Below the pieces are notes generated by a model. It saw only the letters and a list, made by a program, of their open reading frames with translations, was not told the DNA's origin and did not search any database. The position numbers and the translations under genes were made by a program. Positions 8,156-25,334 of a stretch of DNA of 29,058 nucleotides are shown here, one piece after another. The stretch spans positions 1-29,058 of the IMG/VR virus record IMGVR_UViG_3300013297_000194; one strand, given 5' to 3'. Origin of the DNA: a virus. Each line of letters opens with the position of its first letter. The first letter of the stretch is position 1.

Positions 8156-8374
8156 TTTCATGATCTTATTCAGATCAGGCGCAACAGCATCTTTCGCCAA
8201 GATGCATTATCGAACTCCATATCAAGGGCGCAACAGACGGTCCCGCCCGCCGTCCTAATCAACAACGGCGAAATCACGGACTCGCCAGCCGTAACAAGAA
8301 CAAACGAAGATTGCCGGTAAATTCTTCCAGAAGAACCGGCGTGAAAGTAGTGAGAAATAAAGGAGATTACGGCT
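8156..8374. other. Intergenic leader of the capsid gene
   Basis: Holds one dyad repeat (8322-8335) and, just before the capsid ATG at 8375, the Shine-Dalgarno AAAGGAG. A 32-codon ORF (8160-8258) lacks a ribosome binding site. Nothing else seen. Confidence 0.5.
8322..8335 (+). repeat. Dyad repeat copy 5
   Basis: CA centre; 40 bases before the capsid start codon. Confidence 0.9.
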
Positions 8375-11300
8375 ATGAGCGAGCTAGTTTTTAGCCAGTT
8401 CGGTCTTCGGACTCGCTCGATGGCGACATCGAGTAGTGAACCTCCTCTGATCGACTTGGACCCTGAGATCGGGAACAGGGCGGAAGGGCGTCAAAGACTC
8501 CCACCGTGAGAGAGCAAGCGAGGGGGCGCGTCTCTGACGCGATACGATGTTCCGTCCTTGCAGGAACTTGAACTGCAAGAGGTCGGCAGAAATGACCGAT
8601 CCGCGCATCTGCAAAGATGCGAGGTAACAGACGATAGCGAAGCAGTCGTTAGGACTGCCGTCAATCCGGAAATCGAGAAGCAGTTCTTCTCTTAGGACTC
8701 GCTTAGTGGCGACACTGAGTAAGAAAACCATCTCTAATTAATGGGGAAAAGCTGAGATGCTCACCCTCACCAAGCAAGTACAGACTACGCAGGTGCAGAG
8801 ACTGAACGAGATGGGGCCTCAGCCTGAGGTCATGCGACAGTCCGGCCTCATGATAACGATGAATCATGAGAGGCTGACAGAAATGATCAGCCCCGGCTCT
8901 TACGCTAAGATGCCGAGTAACAATTTGGGCGAAGAAAGCCAGACGCTATACAACCGCTTTCATAAAGGGAAAGCGATTCAGGTGAACCAGCGTGGCTATC
9001 GAATTCCGTTTTACGACAGACCGCCGGCTTCGGACAGCTTTTTCAGTGAGGGAGGGGCAATGCCGGTTGCCGATAACCCTCGACAGAACTGGGGGCGGTT
9101 GCTAGAAATAGCAGCACTGAAAACTTCTCTTAATCGACTTGGATGCTGAGAAATAGGTTGCAATTGAATCGAAAGTGTGGTATGATTACAACCTTGCAAA
9201 CAGGGGGCAAGCAGGTAGATTCTTCCAGAAGAAGCCGTGCAGCCTGAGAGACTAAACAGAGAAGGGCCTGACCGGATCAAGCCGAAGGCTATACGATAGT
9301 CCGATCTAGTAGCAACTCAACTACTAGAGGCCGAAGATGAGAGTAAAATGCTAACACCGGATGAAAAAGAACGAGCCACCATGCTTTACGAGTCAGGAGT
9401 GGCGATACGTGCAATCGCGAGGTTAATGCATCGACGTACAACAGTCGTGGGTGATTTTCTCTTACGATCCGCACATCTAGGCAGGGATTGTAGATTTGCG
9501 TCTTTAACGCAGGCACGAAAAGAAGAGGTTTGTTCTTTACATCGATCCGGATTAGCAGCACCCGCAATCGTCAAGGAGACATCCTTGAGCATCGATATCG
9601 TATACCGTGTCTTAAGAGAGTCGGGAATCGACAATGCTCCCGATAAAGTCTTTAGGACGCAGGAACAGCAGCAGGTAGTGACCGAGCTTTACTCCAAGGG
9701 ATTCACTGGTACGCAGATTGCCAAGCATCTAGGAGTTTCGCAGGGAGTTGTATACCGCGAGATTCGGAAGCTTGGCCTAACGCGTCGAAGCATAGCGGGT
9801 CCTAGAGGATACTTTGCGCGATACGTTGATTCGCAGGGACGCATTACGAAGTTCAGAAGTACTTGGGAAGCAGCGTTCGCTAGGTACCTCGATAATAACT
9901 ACCTAAAATGGGCATACGAAGCCCACGCATGGCTTCTGTCGGATGGGTCGGCTTACATTCCTGATTTCTGGGTACCATCGATAGATACGTACTTCGAAGT
10001 CAAGGGATGGATGTCCGAAGAGTCCGCTAGGAAGCTGAAGCTGTTCCAAGAAGAGTATCCCGATATCGATCTTCGTATTATCGACAAGGGGGCTTTTGAT
10101 CGGATAGGAATCGATCTAAAGTCTACGGTTGCGGATTTCGGAACATCTTCTCGTCTTATCTCGTAAGACGAGGCAGAAATGACCGGCCCTTAGCGCATGC
10201 TAAGTAACAAGCAAATGCAGTTCAATGATATGAGAATTTTTCCTGCCAGATACGCCACGGCGTTTCTGATCAGCGGAGACGTGTTCAAACAAATGGACTT
10301 ACTTAGTGGCGACACTAGGTCAAAGAAATCCCTTCTGATTGACTTGGAGACTGAGATGTCAACAGGGCGCAAGCATGCATTCTTCCAGAAGAACGCAGGG
10401 CAGCGTGAGAGAATAAGCGAAGGGACATCCCAATGGGATGATGCGGTATTCCGCTCTCATGGGAATTCTAGGAACCATGAGAAGCTGGCAGAAATGACCA
10501 GCTCCTGCGAAAGCAGAGTAACAAAAGGCGACAACATTGGGGGCGACGCCCTGATCGACAAGATCAGCGACCTCTACCTCCTACAAACAGAAGCAGCCAA
10601 GAAGACCCTTGACTATCAGGTAGCTGGTTCCAAGAACGGAGCCATTGCTGTAGTCAAGTCTGCCACGACTGGAGCGAACGGCACAGTAACCTGTGCCACA
10701 GCTCGTGTCGACGGCGGAACCTTCGGAAGCTACAAGGTCAAGGATGGAGCGCGTATTCATTTCGTCAACGGATCGACGAACATTGCAAGAGGCGCTCCCG
10801 ACGTAGGTGTGGTATCCGATCCGGGCGGCAACAACCGTTCGACCTCGGTAATCACATTCGACGCAGTTCCTGCGGGCACCACTGCTGGAGATTACCTCAC
10901 TTACGAGGGATCGGCGCTAAAAGCCCCACACGGACTGACAGACTTGATTAACAACGACACGGGTAAAGAAAGATTGCCCCGTTCAGTAGTAATACTGAAT
11001 AGAAAATCGGGTGAATTGCCGGGACGCCTAAGTTCGAAAGAATATGGTAATCGGCAGCCAAGCCGAGGGTACACCTTCGGAAGGTTCAGAGACTACTGGA
11101 GGAGTTCAGCCTCCTTAATAACCAGATCAGCGCCCGACTCTTTCACTTGCAGCTCGTTTTCTAGGATAGAGAGAACTTTCGCATCAGTATAGCCCTTACG
11201 GGCCATCCAGTAGAAGCGGTTTCGATCTATTCTAAGTTCTTCGACCCACGCGGATAAACACTGAGTTCGATCATGGTAAGTAATCATACGATTGCGACCA

Positions 11301-13223
11301 AAGTTACGATTCTGATTCTTGCGGGTATCCCACTTGCAATTATCAGGTTCGTAGTTTCCATCATTGTTAATCCGCTCGATGGTATGCTTAGGAGATGGAC
11401 GAGTTTTCATGTCCGTAATGAAATTCTCGAACCCATGTTCGCCAAGCCATCTGTCACATATCGAGATATCGCAGTAGTCTTTATAGGATGTGCGATTCTC
11501 GTTGTAGCATCGATCTATCATGCCCATGTAGACGTCGTACTCGACGGTACCAGAGAGGCCGTGAGTCCGGTTGGCTTCGGCAGCACGTTGTTGCTGGTAA
11601 CCGCACGTACCGCACGAAGAAGTGATGCCACTGAAGATGCGGTCTTTACGAGTAGTGCCTTCTTTTCCGCAGGCGCATTTAAAGGTGCAATAAACACGGT
11701 ACCTGTTGTTTTCCCAGATACGCACCTCGCCCCGCAGAGTCAAAAGACCCTTTTCAGTAGGATAGATCGCTGGATAGGTCATGGCAGTAAGTATACCACA
11801 TCGACGAAGAAAACGCAAGTGAAAGATGATGAAATAGGCCGAGCCTTATGGAAACATAAGGAGACTGACGGAAACGATCAGTCCCGATACTTTTTCCAGA
11901 AGAATCGAGTAACAAAACTGGAGATACAGGGTCAGTTGCGAGCCAATAGGCCGTACCTGAAATCCATCGCACTTAACGCACAGACTCAGCGGTTACAGGT
12001 AGCACTGCTGGTCGAGGTGCACTTCTCGCTCCGGTATCGTACCGATAATCCGGGGAACACTTTAATCCTGTCGTCCCCAACTCAGAAAGCGGCTTACATG
12101 AGCAACGGCTTTGTAAAAGAGGCCCGTCATGCGGTGACGCATGATTGTTACCGGGTGAATTCAGGAAAAACCTACAGCGAAAGCCAAGGCAATCCTGAGC
12201 CAAGTCCATCGAATGGCATGAGAGTAGATGGAAAGGTGCAGAGACTAGGACAGAGGAGCCAATCCGATAATGTCCATCAGCGCCCGGCACTCGCTTCTTG
12301 GCGAGTTGAAAAGATAGTCCGCTCTGTATGGAAACATGCAGCTAACACAAAGGACAATTTGCAACGCTTTGACGGCGGCGGCGGAACCCTTCGGATGGAC
12401 TTCACTGACGTGAAGTTCGGAGAGGGTATAACCTGGGACACCCATGTGGCGATTGATCCGGATCGCTGCTATGGGGTGAATCCCAACGACATCAATGTGT
12501 ACGAGCTAAGATCAGCATTGGCTCGCATGATAGCGATATCATGAAAACCAACTGGGTGAATTGCGGGAAGGCTAAGGATTTAATTCTATGCTAATCCGCA
12601 GCGAAGCTCATCGAATGGTATTAAGGTAGATGAGAACGTTCAGAGACTATCAGGTGAGGAACCAGACCAATAACCCTGAACCAGCGCCCGGCGACTTGAA
12701 TAAGCAAGTCGATGATATAGTCCGACACTCCAGTGAAAGCCGGAGATTACAGATGGATGAAGTTCGGTGCGTATGCAAGAGACACTCTCCAGATGAGACA
12801 ATACACGTCTGGAGGCACCTATGTATCATAGTGGGTGCCGTAGCGGTGACGCTATGTAAACAACTGGGCTATATGCTGGAAACCCCGAGTATCCTGCGGT
12901 ACGACGCAAGTCGTAACAATCCGTCAGGTGCGGACAATCAGCAGGGAAGGCTGCGCAAGCAGAACCCTCAACGACTTCACGCCCAGATCTCAATGATTTG
13001 AGAATAAGATAAAGTCTGGACTACATGGCGACATGTAGAAGTAGGCGGAAACGACCTACTCCGGTTCTTCCAGAAGAATCGAGTAACAATGTACGATTAT
13101 GATCAATGGATAGGCTTCCTCGGATGCAAGTACGATTTGGGCGCTACGCGCTTCGGATCACACTGGCTACTGAGCAACCTAGACATTACGGGCCTCCCGA
13201 GCCCGGCCATAGCTTTCGCGTAG
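8375..13223 (+). CDS. Major capsid protein gene split by eight group I introns
   Basis: Reconstructed from nine exons: 8375-8400, 8638-8685, 8930-9080, 10212-10285, 10529-10964, 11921-12130, 12353-12507, 12756-12822 and 13092-13223. Together they give 1299 nt, one uninterrupted frame of 432 residues. Start ATG has AAAGGAG upstream. The pieces join sensibly: ...VNPEIEKQF, then an EGG-containing loop, IFPARYATAFLISGDVF, a Gly-rich insertion, DTG-EIQGQL, WDTHVAIDPDRCYGVN, and a C-terminal GATRFGSHWLLSNLDITGLP. This resembles a phage coat protein with an E-loop-like segment early and an insertion domain in the middle; place (after the scaffold) and length agree, but the fold was not tested. Only about 27% of the locus is coding. 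Exon ends are read from frame, P1 and P10 pairing. The intron 6 acceptor could instead be 12361, giving 429 residues. Exon coordinates are an inference until spliced mRNA is sequenced. Confidence 0.8.
8401..8637 (+). ncRNA. Group I intron 1 of the capsid gene
   Basis: 237 nt, no ORF. P1 pairs exon AGTT with GACT, ending in U-G. P10 is supported by five pairs (exon CGAAG with CTTCG). P2 is CTCGATG-GCGA-CATCGAG (8416-8433). R lies at 8506-8518 (GAGAGAGCAAG) and S at 8541-8553 (GATGTTCC), with P8 GCGTC/GACGC between and a 7-bp P9 (CTTGCAG/CTGCAAG). The 3' end has the GGCAGAAATGACC arm, a hairpin and GGTAACA. Same family as introns 2, 3 and 4. Confidence 0.8.
8686..8929 (+). ncRNA. Group I intron 2 of the capsid gene
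   Basis: 244 nt, no ORF. It sits in CAGTT^CGAAG, the same target as intron 1. P2 is CTTAGTG-GCGA-CACTGAG (8702-8719). R contains CAGAGACTGAA and S GACAGTCC, so P7 pairs GACTG with CAGTC. P8 is CCTCA/TGAGG, P9 CTCATGA/TCATGAG. 3' module GACAGAAATGATC, hairpin and GAGTAACAA. Part of an apparent ORF from 8757 reads through it and is not a real N terminus. Confidence 0.8.
9220..9233 (+). repeat. Dyad repeat copy 6, in intron 3
   Basis: CA centre; just upstream of the R element of intron 3, in the P5/P6 region. Confidence 0.9.
9348..10166 (+). CDS. Intron-encoded homing endonuclease (HTH repeats plus PD-(D/E)XK/EDxHD-like nuclease)
   Basis: 272 residues, inside intron 3 in the sense orientation. 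Residues about 1-145 hold three helix-turn-helix-like repeats of the resolvase/LuxR look (AIRAIARLMHRRTTVV, APAIVKETSLSIDIVYRVL, GTQIAKHLGVSQGVVYREI). The C-terminal nuclease has FRSTWE (169-174), WAYE (188-191), IPDFW (204-208) and FEVKG (216-220). That order of conserved acidic residues and a Lys fits Vsr/EDxHD-type or PD-(D/E)XK nucleases, of which intron-encoded examples are known from phages. It would cut an intronless capsid allele and start homing of intron 3. The ATG follows GAAGATGAGAG; translation after splicing or from the precursor is unclear. Exact family is inferred. Confidence 0.7.
   Translation: MLTPDEKERATMLYESGVAIRAIARLMHRRTTVVGDFLLRSAHLGRDCRFASLTQARKEEVCSLHRSGLAAPAIVKETSLSIDIVYRVLRESGIDNAPDKVFRTQEQQQVVTELYSKGFTGTQIAKHLGVSQGVVYREIRKLGLTRRSIAGPRGYFARYVDSQGRITKFRSTWEAAFARYLDNNYLKWAYEAHAWLLSDGSAYIPDFWVPSIDTYFEVKGWMSEESARKLKLFQEEYPDIDLRIIDKGAFDRIGIDLKSTVADFGTSSRLIS
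10286..10528 (+). ncRNA. Group I intron 4 of the capsid gene
   Basis: 243 nt, no ORF, in a GTGTT^CGACA context like introns 1 and 2. P2 is CTTAGTG-GCGA-CACTAGG (10302-10319). R GTGAGAGAATAAG (10405-10417) pairs with S GGTATTCCG (about 10445-10453) through GAATA/TATTC, a compensated change from the usual GACTA/TAGTC. P8 CATCC/GGATG, P9 CTCATGG/CCATGAG. A dyad repeat lies at 10380. 3' module GGCAGAAATGACC, CTGC-GAAA-GCAG, AGTAACA. P1 is the weakest of the set. Confidence 0.75.
10380..10393 (+). repeat. Dyad repeat copy 7, in intron 4
   Basis: CA centre; same relative place as in intron 3, upstream of R. Confidence 0.9.
11093..11782 (-). CDS. Antisense HNH homing endonuclease inside intron 5
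   Basis: 229 residues from the ATG at 11782, chosen because a promoter -10 box lies exactly 7 nt upstream; a longer frame to 11818 would start inside the -35 box. Residues 32-60 have a Cys cluster (YCTFKCACG, SSCGTCG) likely to bind zinc. The HNH core is HTIERINNDGNYEPDNCKW (133-151), of the type found in many phage free-standing and intron-encoded nucleases. The C-terminal CLSAWVEELRIDRNRFYWMARKG (175-197) looks like a NUMOD-type DNA-binding helix. The stop codon lies in the intron's R element. Antisense placement in a group I intron is unusual: it must be transcribed separately from the capsid mRNA. Confidence 0.75.
   Translation of the reverse strand: MTYPAIYPTEKGLLTLRGEVRIWENNRYRVYCTFKCACGKEGTTRKDRIFSGITSSCGTCGYQQQRAAEANRTHGLSGTVEYDVYMGMIDRCYNENRTSYKDYCDISICDRWLGEHGFENFITDMKTRPSPKHTIERINNDGNYEPDNCKWDTRKNQNRNFGRNRMITYHDRTQCLSAWVEELRIDRNRFYWMARKGYTDAKVLSILENELQVKESGADLVIKEAELLQ
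11790..11818 (-). promoter_or_regulatory. Promoter for the antisense HNH gene
   Basis: On the minus strand: TTGCGT, 17 bp, TATACT with an upstream TGTGG (extended -10), then 7 nt to the ATG at 11782. This predicts an essentially leaderless mRNA. Confidence 0.6.
11891..11904 (+). repeat. Dyad repeat copy 8, in intron 5 (one mismatch)
   Basis: TTTTTCCAGAAGAA; near the 3' end of intron 5, directly before CGAGTAACAA. Confidence 0.8.
12131..12352 (+). ncRNA. Group I intron 6 of the capsid gene
   Basis: About 222 nt, no ORF. P1: exon CGTCAT pairs with GTGACG, closing U-G. P-element GAATTCAGGAAA (12157-12168), Q AATCCTGAGCCAAG (12191-12204), R GTGCAGAGACTA (12236-12247), S AAGATAGTCC (12311-12320): a canonical core. 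P9 CTGTATG-GAAA-CATGCAG. It lacks the shared 3' module of introns 1-5 and 8. The acceptor G is 12352 or 12361. Confidence 0.8.
12508..12755 (+). ncRNA. Group I intron 7 of the capsid gene
   Basis: 248 nt, no ORF. P1: exon CGAGCT with GGCTCG, closing U-G; P10: exon GATG with CATT. P GAATTGCGGGAA (12558-12569), Q AATCCGCAGCGAAGC (12592-12606), R GTTCAGAGACTA (12638-12649), S GATGATATAGTCC (12711-12723), P8 GACTT/AAGTC. This is the cleanest core of the set. It splits a Leu codon (CT^G). Confidence 0.85.
12823..13091 (+). ncRNA. Group I intron 8 of the capsid gene (different core subclass)
   Basis: 269 nt, no ORF. P1: GGCACCTAT pairs with GTGGGTGCC over nine positions with U-G at the splice site. 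P2 has a GTGA tetraloop (GTAGCG/CGCTAT). P TATATGCTGGAAACCCC, Q ACAATCAGCAGGGAAG (12934-12949), R CCTCAACGACTTCACGCC and S AAGATAAAGTC (13006-13016) are IB-like, unlike introns 5-7. Yet the 3' end (CTACATG-GCGA-CATGTAG, GGCGGAAACGACC, dyad hairpin at 13065, GAGTAACAA) is that of introns 1-5. Confidence 0.85.
13065..13078 (+). repeat. Dyad repeat copy 9, in intron 8
   Basis: CA centre; before TCGAGTAACAA at the 3' end of intron 8, same place as in intron 5. Confidence 0.9.
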
Positions 13224-13252: not shown

Positions 13253-13290
13253 CCCGGAAACGTCCATGAATTTTCATCGACGTTTCCGGG
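13253..13290. terminator. Long hairpin after the capsid gene (terminator-like, no U-tract)
   Basis: CCCGGAAACGTC pairs perfectly with GACGTTTCCGGG, and the interior ATGAA/TTCAT extends it. It starts 30 bases after the capsid stop and overlaps the 3' end of the convergent HNH gene, so it may end or protect both transcripts. No T-run follows on either strand. Confidence 0.55.
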
Positions 13291-13837
13291 TAGTAGCTAC
13301 GATAGGACCACCAGCAGATTTTCGACGACGGCCAGTGAGAATTAAATCCACATTAGTTATAGCCATAGGATACCGTCTTGCAATCTGCGTCAGAGTCAGA
13401 CCCGTAGCGTAAAGATTACGCATTTCAACAATCTCAGCATCCGACCATAACGAATTACCATGACGCTCACCAAACGCCTTATTCCCACGACCTTCTTGCA
13501 TCATCTGCTGGAGGTTAATCTTCTGAGTATCAGGAAAGAGATGCTTGCGATTCGGATTAGGATTAACGCAGGGCGGATTATTACATCCATGAAGCATAAG
13601 CTTTTCACCGGGATCGGAATTGCCAGCAAGTACCCAAGCCATGCGGGTAGCGGAGAAGCAGATTCGTTTCCCGTTACGCCTTACGGAAGTATGCCCGTAT
13701 CCCTTGGAGTTCGCAGCGCCATGCCACGGCCAGCATTCATCTGGACCGCGCTTGGTATACTTTTGACGAAAGCGCTCGATCTCTTCGGATGTAAGAACAG
13801 GCAATGGGATTGGTGTACGGCAAGTCAGTTTGGGCAT
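13274..13837 (-). CDS. Free-standing HNH homing endonuclease
   Basis: 187 residues, minus strand, AAAGGAG about 9 bases before the ATG. Classic HNH_3-type layout: GPDECWPWHG (31-40), GYG (46-48), then LMLHGCNNPPCVNP (81-94), HLFPDT (99-104), a QKINLQQMMQEGRG helix, and a C-terminal helix-turn-helix (about 133-167, WSDAEIVEMR, LTLTQIARRYP). Such genes cut phage DNA near conserved genes and spread into their flanks. Lying beside the capsid gene it could help mobilise one of the ORF-less introns (inference). It has its own promoter (13902-13930). Confidence 0.8.
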   Translation of the reverse strand: MPKLTCRTPIPLPVLTSEEIERFRQKYTKRGPDECWPWHGAANSKGYGHTSVRRNGKRICFSATRMAWVLAGNSDPGEKLMLHGCNNPPCVNPNPNRKHLFPDTQKINLQQMMQEGRGNKAFGERHGNSLWSDAEIVEMRNLYATGLTLTQIARRYPMAITNVDLILTGRRRKSAGGPIVATTRKRR

Positions 13838-24033: not shown

Positions 24034-24330
24034 ATGCCAAGAGCGATTCAATTTGACGGCACGAACTACGAAGACGTCATTTACTTCTCGGAGCAGGGCG
24101 AGATCGTACTAGCGAACAGAGAAGGCGATGAAGTTGACGATGACGGCAAGGTCCAGTACACTGGCACACTGCGAGTACATACACCTACGGGAATCGTAAC
24201 TGTCAATGAAGGCGACTGGATCGTAGACAGCGATAGTGCTTACCATGTCGCCTCGGGATTCCTTCCGAAAGAAAGCGATGCGGAAGCGAAGTCAACTTGC
24301 TGTCCAGAGAAAGATGGAGTGAATCAATGA
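24034..24330 (+). CDS. 98-residue unknown acidic protein
   Basis: Shine-Dalgarno GAGGAAG directly follows the dyad repeat at 24009. Beta-rich, acidic (EGDEVDDDGKVQYTGTLRVH); CC near the C terminus. The stop overlaps the next start. No family recognised. Confidence 0.6.
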   Translation: MPRAIQFDGTNYEDVIYFSEQGEIVLANREGDEVDDDGKVQYTGTLRVHTPTGIVTVNEGDWIVDSDSAYHVASGFLPKESDAEAKSTCCPEKDGVNQ

Positions 24331-25334
24331 TGTCATACGGTTTAGGTTATATCCCAGATCTTCCCGACCAGAGGGACTGGCGGCACGTCCCACCGGGCGG
24401 AGCGCCCATCCAATTGCCGCCACTGGTCGATCTAAGAACGCAGTCATACCCCAAGCCCTGCTACAATCAGGGCTCCGTGAATAGCTGCACGGCTAACAGC
24501 GTCGGCGCAATGTTTGGTTTCGTAGATCGAAAGCAAGGCGGCTCGAATATTAATCCCTCACGTCGTCAGCTTTACTACGACGCGAGGGCTTATGATGGAT
24601 TGCAGGCTATCGACCAGGGCGCGTACATACGGTCGGCACTGAGAGCGATAACAGACAGGGGCGTTGCCGACGAGTCGCTGTTCCCTTACGATGTCGTAAA
24701 GATCAACGAACAGCCTCCGCAAAATGTCTACGAAGCCGCATTGAACAAACAGGCCTTGGCTTACCTGCGTGTCGATATCACGGTGGACGCCTTCCGTGCA
24801 TGCTTGGCGGAAAGCTACCCGTTCGTGGTCGGTACCACGTTGTACCAGAATTACTACGATGCAGCTACGACCGGACGTGTCCGAATGCCAGTAGGACCAG
24901 TCATAGGCGGGCACGCGCAGATGTTCGTCGGATATAGCGACACTGAGCGCGTATTTATCGTACAGGGATCATGGGGCAGCTTTGGCGACAATGGCTTTGT
25001 CTACATGCCCTACGATTACGCTGCAAGTGAGAACTTCTCGGCGGATGCTTGGACGATAAGGTCGCTCGAAGAAGTGGTGACGCCTCCCCCGCCGCCACAA
25101 CTCGTTCCAGTCATTACTTACGTCAGTCGCTACAAAGAGAAGAAACAGATGGTCGTAGTAGACGCGGACAATACCGATCTAGACGCTGCGCTTCTTATCG
25201 ATGGCAAACGAGTAGCTAGTGGGCATGACGGAGTGTTTACCGCAAAGCATCTCGGATTAACAGCAGGTGGACATATACTGGTCGTGCAAAATGGATCAGG
25301 CGCTATGTCCCGACAGCATGTACTAACAGTTTGA
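24327..25334 (+). CDS. Papain-like (C1A-type) cysteine protease with C-terminal beta-sandwich-like domain
   Basis: 335 residues from the ATG overlapping the previous stop. The catalytic domain shows NQGSVNSCTANS with Gln48 and Cys54 (oxyanion Gln and nucleophile), the SRRQLYYDARAY helix, the GAYIRSALRAITDRGVADES segment typical of bacterial/viral C1A relatives, and GGHAQMFVGY with His196. The usual NSWG is GSWG here (214-217), so the catalytic Asn is replaced by Gly. After a Pro-rich linker (TPPPPPQ) an 85-residue beta domain follows, Ig/IPT-like in look. No signal peptide. It may be a virion-associated protease for head maturation, receptor processing or host-surface digestion; which one is not shown. 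Confidence 0.7.
   Translation: MMSYGLGYIPDLPDQRDWRHVPPGGAPIQLPPLVDLRTQSYPKPCYNQGSVNSCTANSVGAMFGFVDRKQGGSNINPSRRQLYYDARAYDGLQAIDQGAYIRSALRAITDRGVADESLFPYDVVKINEQPPQNVYEAALNKQALAYLRVDITVDAFRACLAESYPFVVGTTLYQNYYDAATTGRVRMPVGPVIGGHAQMFVGYSDTERVFIVQGSWGSFGDNGFVYMPYDYAASENFSADAWTIRSLEEVVTPPPPPQLVPVITYVSRYKEKKQMVVVDADNTDLDAALLIDGKRVASGHDGVFTAKHLGLTAGGHILVVQNGSGAMSRQHVLTV

Follow-up and report, generated by a model that had tools for sequence, protein, structure and literature searches.

Capsid genes with group I introns are already known from phages. The major capsid protein (MCP) gene of a zeta-group crAss-like phage (cMAG OLRF01000054) consists of five fragments with four insertions, three of which contain group I-type domains (Yutin et al. 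2021, PMC7886860). In mycobacteriophage LittleE, the capsid gene carries one intron, whose splicing was shown by RT-PCR (Pope et al. 2013, PMC3706429). Jug phages contain on average 18.5 group I introns per genome, and RNA (metatranscriptome) reads support the splicing of 37 of the 76 introns predicted in three genomes (PMC12363816). The ribonucleotide reductase gene of phage Twort harbours two group I introns, as far as can be judged from the title of a reference cited in PMC3984707.

The DNA analysed here (29,058 nucleotides of the IMG/VR virus record IMGVR_UViG_3300013297_000194, referred to as the window) contains an extreme case of this known kind. Positions 8375-13223 comprise one gene of nine exons and eight introns, and the joined exons encode 421 amino acids. 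We hold with high confidence that it is a phage major capsid gene split by eight group I introns that are spliced out, although splicing was inferred from the sequence and is not backed by RNA or protein data. This confidence covers the introns and their splicing, not the route by which the introns spread.

Exon and intron structure

Exon edges were set by colinearity with the intronless gene L006:8692-9948, which is part of a 104,444-base viral contig, was found by a search with exon 5 and forms one open frame of 419 amino acids. If several edges within a few bases were equally colinear, an edge after T and an intron ending in G were preferred. Introns were assigned to type A, detectable with the Rfam model RF00028 (Intron_gpI), or to type B, which comprises ten introns with a common P3-P8 core (introns 1-4 of the window and introns 1, 2, 4, 6, 7 and 10 of the relative L009, described below). 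R1 denotes a covariance model built from type B cores. All nine exons listed are colinear with L006; slashes mark the exon/intron border.

8375..8400 (+): exon 1, MSELVFSQ plus TT
8401..8637 (+): intron 1, type B group I, 237 nt, phase 2, CAGTT/CGAAG
8439-8554 (+): core of intron 1, based on covariation; R1 109.5 bits (training member); P10 of intron 1, 5 bp
8638..8685 (+): exon 2, 48 nt
8686..8929 (+): intron 2, type B group I, 244 nt, phase 2, CAGTT/CGAAG; core 8726-8844, based on covariation and R1
8930..9080 (+): exon 3, 151 nt
9081..10217 (+): intron 3, type B group I, 1137 nt, phase 0; core 9122-9303; R1 76.4 bits, with intron 3 kept out of the model; P10 6 bp; endonuclease ORF inside
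9348..10166 (+): ORF in intron 3, putative homing endonuclease with helix-turn-helix repeats and a Phage_endo_I-like nuclease
10218..10285 (+): exon 4, 68 nt
10286..10528 (+): intron 4, type B group I, 243 nt, phase 2, GTGTT/CGACA; core 10327-10453, based on covariation and R1
10529..10964 (+): exon 5, 436 nt
10965..11920 (+): intron 5, type A group I, 956 nt, phase 0; RF00028 78.8 bits
11093..11818 (-, opposite to the gene): HNH endonuclease ORF in intron 5; phrog_374, E 3.9e-42
11921..12110 (+): exon 6, 190 nt
12111..12353 (+): intron 6, type A group I, 243 nt, phase 1; RF00028 97.2 bits
12354..12507 (+): exon 7, 154 nt
12508..12755 (+): intron 7, type A group I, 248 nt, phase 2; RF00028 98.6 bits; same site as L009 intron X9
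12756..12820 (+): exon 8, 65 nt
12821..13095 (+): intron 8, type A group I, 275 nt, phase 1; RF00028 64.5 bits; P1 7 bp, P10 8 bp
13096..13223 (+): exon 9, stop codon TAG

Introns make up 3583 of the 4849 bases (73.9%), which agrees with the eight introns and about 73% intronic sequence proposed in an earlier note on this DNA. That note had also joined nine exons in one frame, as found here, but its product of 432 residues is reduced to 421 by colinearity with L006. Its edges for intron 7 (12508-12755) were exact; intron 8 is present as well, but its edges (12823-13091) had to be moved to 12821-13095 on the basis of L006 colinearity and the junction rule, and exon 8 measures 65 nt rather than 67 nt. 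The note had regarded an intronless homologue with a different alignment at the junctions as a possible refutation of this structure. The spliced window protein aligns colinearly with L006 over every junction (304 of 422 positions identical), without a gap at any of them; the gaps that do occur fall within exons 5 and 7. All eight window introns are preceded by T and end in G. Because junctions were picked to meet these rules where colinearity was ambiguous, the rules serve as a consistency check and not as a wholly independent test.

The second relative, L009 (part of a 104,058-base contig), was found by profile search, and its exon edges were set by the procedure used for the window. Its capsid gene contains eleven exons and ten introns, and the spliced protein of 421 amino acids is identical to that of the window at 384 of 421 positions (91%), without gaps. 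Exon 1 of L009 comprises only six bases (ATGGCT), a two-codon exon that would escape ordinary gene callers. Across the two genes, T precedes 18 of 18 introns and G stands at the end of 17 (9 of 10 in L009); the exception, L009 intron X2, ends in T unless its edges are moved by one base. With 183 nt, L009 intron X10 (9514-9696) is the shortest of the 18. These alignments demonstrate the exon structure and its colinearity, and the pairing analysis given below demonstrates conserved ribozyme pairing, as far as sequence comparison can; that splicing takes place in the cell, needs no cofactors and depends on guanosine is inferred.

Two further candidates were rejected. An assembly artefact was ruled out by two contigs from different samples that both show intact ribozyme cores and gapless splicing, and inteins were ruled out by the stops and frame changes within the inserts. 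As a separate observation, exon 2 (8638-8685; 48 nt) lies between two identical CAGTT/CGAAG sites, and its skipping would keep the frame with a loss of 16 residues.

Insertion sites and possible routes of intron spread

The proposed history is that group I introns of two kinds entered the capsid gene on eight separate occasions: four Rfam-detectable type A introns and four compact type B introns missed by the Rfam model. Each intron would fold as its own ribozyme, with an internal guide sequence pairing with the last exon bases (U-G at the 5' site), and exogenous guanosine would start the two transesterifications that remove it. One primary transcript would thus undergo eight splicing events to give the mRNA for the 421-amino-acid capsid protein. 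Two introns bear putative homing endonucleases, one of them on the opposite strand. The ORF in intron 3 matches PF02796, PF13936 and PF05367 as well as phrog_9019 and phrog_945, and the six introns without such an ORF (237-275 nt) are too short to hold one. Directly downstream of the capsid gene, at 13274-13837 (-), there is a free-standing HNH endonuclease ORF (phrog_1872).

A single insertion site is common to both intron-bearing genes, namely codon 358 in phase 2, where intron 7 of the window and intron 9 of L009 lie; these two introns are sisters in the type A intron tree (local support 0.85). Counted over both genes, 17 distinct positions within the 421 codons carry an intron. All RF00028 and R1 matches in the L009 record (104 kb) fall inside the capsid gene, and the 104-kb record of L006 gave no RF00028 or R1 match. 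Judged by this comparison, the capsid gene is a hot-spot for insertions: nine of the ten introns of the close relative L009 occupy sites that are empty in the window, and L006 lacks introns altogether. Intron numbers of zero, eight and ten in three related genes, distributed over 17 sites, offer a rare direct view of ongoing intron gain or loss.

The ORF-bearing introns are inferred to have spread by homing, and the small introns by guide-directed reverse splicing and recombination. The 10-mer CAGTTCGAAG occurs in exactly two copies in the spliced gene, both of which are occupied, by introns 1 and 2. In addition, introns 1, 2 and 4 and L009 intron 4 have a common GGACT near their 5' ends and are inserted after TT. 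Both features fit reverse splicing directed by the guide sequence and subsequent recombination, but homing of similar introns is not excluded. The main rival, which concerns only the route of spread, remains a real possibility that we rate somewhat below an even chance: the introns may have arrived by repeated homing from other phages, with the endonucleases now mostly lost and no spread within the gene. ORFs do persist in introns 3 and 5, other phages also have multi-intron structural genes, and in the type B core tree window introns 2, 3 and 4 are not grouped with one another but scattered among the introns of other phages. In the same tree, however, five L009 introns from five different sites cluster (local support 0.84); site-specific homing alone makes no new sites, and the occupation of both copies of the 10-mer likewise counts against it.

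Several other features of the window were recorded. A 14-bp palindrome, TTCTTC(CA/TG)GAAGAA, is present in 18 exact copies and two copies with one mismatch (expected, 0.03), at the following positions:

4867, 5684, 7279, 7667, 8322, 9220, 10380, 11891, 13065, 14315: palindrome copies, first ten
15973, 16755, 18774, 19452, 20470, 21504, 22667, 24009, 25865, 27942: palindrome copies, other ten

Copies lie inside introns 3, 4, 5 and 8, in the P6 region in introns 3 and 4. L009 contains a variant with the centre CG (7 copies in 12 kb, introns included), and no copy was found in L007, which belongs to the same contig as the intronless L006. An ORF for a papain-family cysteine protease is located at 24297-25334 (PF00112, E 1.7e-9).

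Coding capacity and ribozyme cores

The earlier note had called this a capsid gene. The identification of the product as a major capsid protein rests on gene context and on a weak, remote match of the spliced protein to PHROG 14242, 'major head protein' (E 2.5e-7). The intronless L006 protein matches the same family, again weakly and remotely (E 7.7e-6). Single-sequence structure prediction of the capsid protein (pLDDT 31) was unusable for recognition of an HK97 fold, and a sequence search of solved structures yielded chance-level matches only. No match was obtained by tblastn of exons 3 and 5 and the intronless homologue against 50,697 phage records, and no relative was recovered when the genomes of 84,980 bacterial and archaeal species were searched with a profile. 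Relatives of another window protein, sought for host inference, were not found.

It is very unlikely, in our assessment, that the gene is a decayed, insertion-filled copy whose working counterpart lies elsewhere in the genome, outside the 29-kb record. The record is short compared with the 104 kb of the relatives, and a second copy is not directly excludable. Nevertheless, the gene retains 421 codons without a frameshift or stop, the ribozyme cores retain their pairing, and searches gave a single capsid locus in the L009 record. Moreover, the 91% amino-acid identity between the window and L009 is found at a nucleotide identity of 75%, with a dN of 0.092 and saturated synonymous sites; therefore, selection acts on the reading frame, which has to be restored. 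This pattern of substitutions demonstrates purifying selection on the exons.

That each insert in this reading frame is a group I intron was assessed by covariance models, pairing of the cores and pairing at the splice sites. RF00028 matched introns 5-8 above the gathering score, as it did four introns of L009, but gave no Rfam group I match in the region of introns 1-4 (8300-10700) even at E<5. The type B covariation alignment contained eight of the ten introns, including window introns 1, 2 and 4; intron 3 was assigned to type B by manually placed arms and model R1. In the core structure, 97% of the alignment cells are paired, and 24 of the 29 P3-P8 pairs, those of the P3/P7 pseudoknot included, show a change of both partners in one or more of the sequences. 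Covariation scored 0.744, compared with 0.265 in shuffles (0/500 as high). Sliding the pairing partners lowered the pairing to 35-45%, but this control is biased towards the drawn structure, which was derived from the same sequences. Less dependent on the hand-drawn structure are the unaided fold, in which RNAalifold recovered P3, P4, P5, P6 and P8, and the matches of R1 to introns left out of the model (intron 3, 76.4 bits; L009 X1, 83.7 bits).

The earlier note had also reported P1 helices with U-G and P10 at several junctions. Consistent with this, P1 averaged 5.06 bp over the 18 introns (3.12 bp, sd 0.40, in random controls) and P10 averaged 3.56 bp (1.79 bp, sd 0.28), with 0/2000 control sets as high in either case. 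These values exceed the controls for the introns taken as a set, and P10 is weak (1-2 bp) in introns 2, 4 and 5. The covariance-model check of the eight segments that the note had put forward was thus met by Rfam for introns 5-8 and by covariation together with a custom covariance model for introns 1-4. Covariation supports the classification of introns 1-4 as group I, though they are missed by the Rfam model; that chiefly these four are other insertions with edges that merely look right, as the missing Rfam match might suggest, is barely credible in view of the compensatory changes, the unaided fold, the held-out R1 matches and the same junction rules.

Type B introns in other phages and comparison with known systems

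Introns of the same kind were found in dozens of other viral contigs, as judged by motif and model: the type B sequence motif gave 102 matching stretches of viral contigs, and R1 gave 72 matches in the 81 loci searched, some of which represent the same phage in several contigs. In L047, L053, L061, L083 and L042 (and also L071, L079 and L085), capsid genes of another family are each interrupted by two or three close type B introns and by other insertions, although the intron counts in these loci are not exact. The capsid family of the first five loci is PHROG 1357, distinct from that of the window, and exons of loci with this family align piecewise to the intact capsid gene of isolate Tunturi_3 (Acidobacteriota host), in which no introns were detected by RF00028 or R1. 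Type B introns also adjoin a capsid-like ORF of L021 that matches PHROG 14242. At L064 11042-11448 (-), two type B introns lie beside or within an apparent portal gene (assigned by eye). A tentative, on balance doubtful, generalization is that type B represents a mobile ribozyme lineage that moves among sites in the structural genes of phages by endonuclease-independent, guide-directed reverse splicing and makes capsid genes intron hot-spots in many uncultured phages.

R1 finds introns that the Rfam model misses; therefore, fragmented capsid genes in viral metagenomes are probably under-annotated. Few phage products are made in such quantity as the capsid protein, and eight or ten ribozyme splicings per message would be a strong test of the cost of self-splicing.

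A literature search for the number of introns in mitochondrial cox1 returned nothing usable. For phages, no gene with eight or ten introns was found to be reported, the most being four insertions (PMC7886860); subscription papers were mostly not covered, and this is no proof of a record. Against the literature consulted, the earlier view that eight introns in one structural gene are exceptional stands, and the gene is among the most intron-crowded phage genes described. The MCP gene of OLRF01000054 is similar in that it, too, encodes the major capsid protein of an uncultured phage and is interrupted by group I-type insertions, but it has four insertions, compared with eight and ten introns in the window and L009, with exact edges, an intronless control and 17 sites. 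The capsid gene of LittleE likewise has an exon ending in U and an intron ending in G, but only one intron. Twort, according to the cited title, also has several group I introns in one gene, but these number two and reside in a metabolic gene. The Jug phages, finally, have many group I introns as well, distributed over terL, nrdD and other genes, whereas in the records of the window and its relatives all detected introns lie in one gene.
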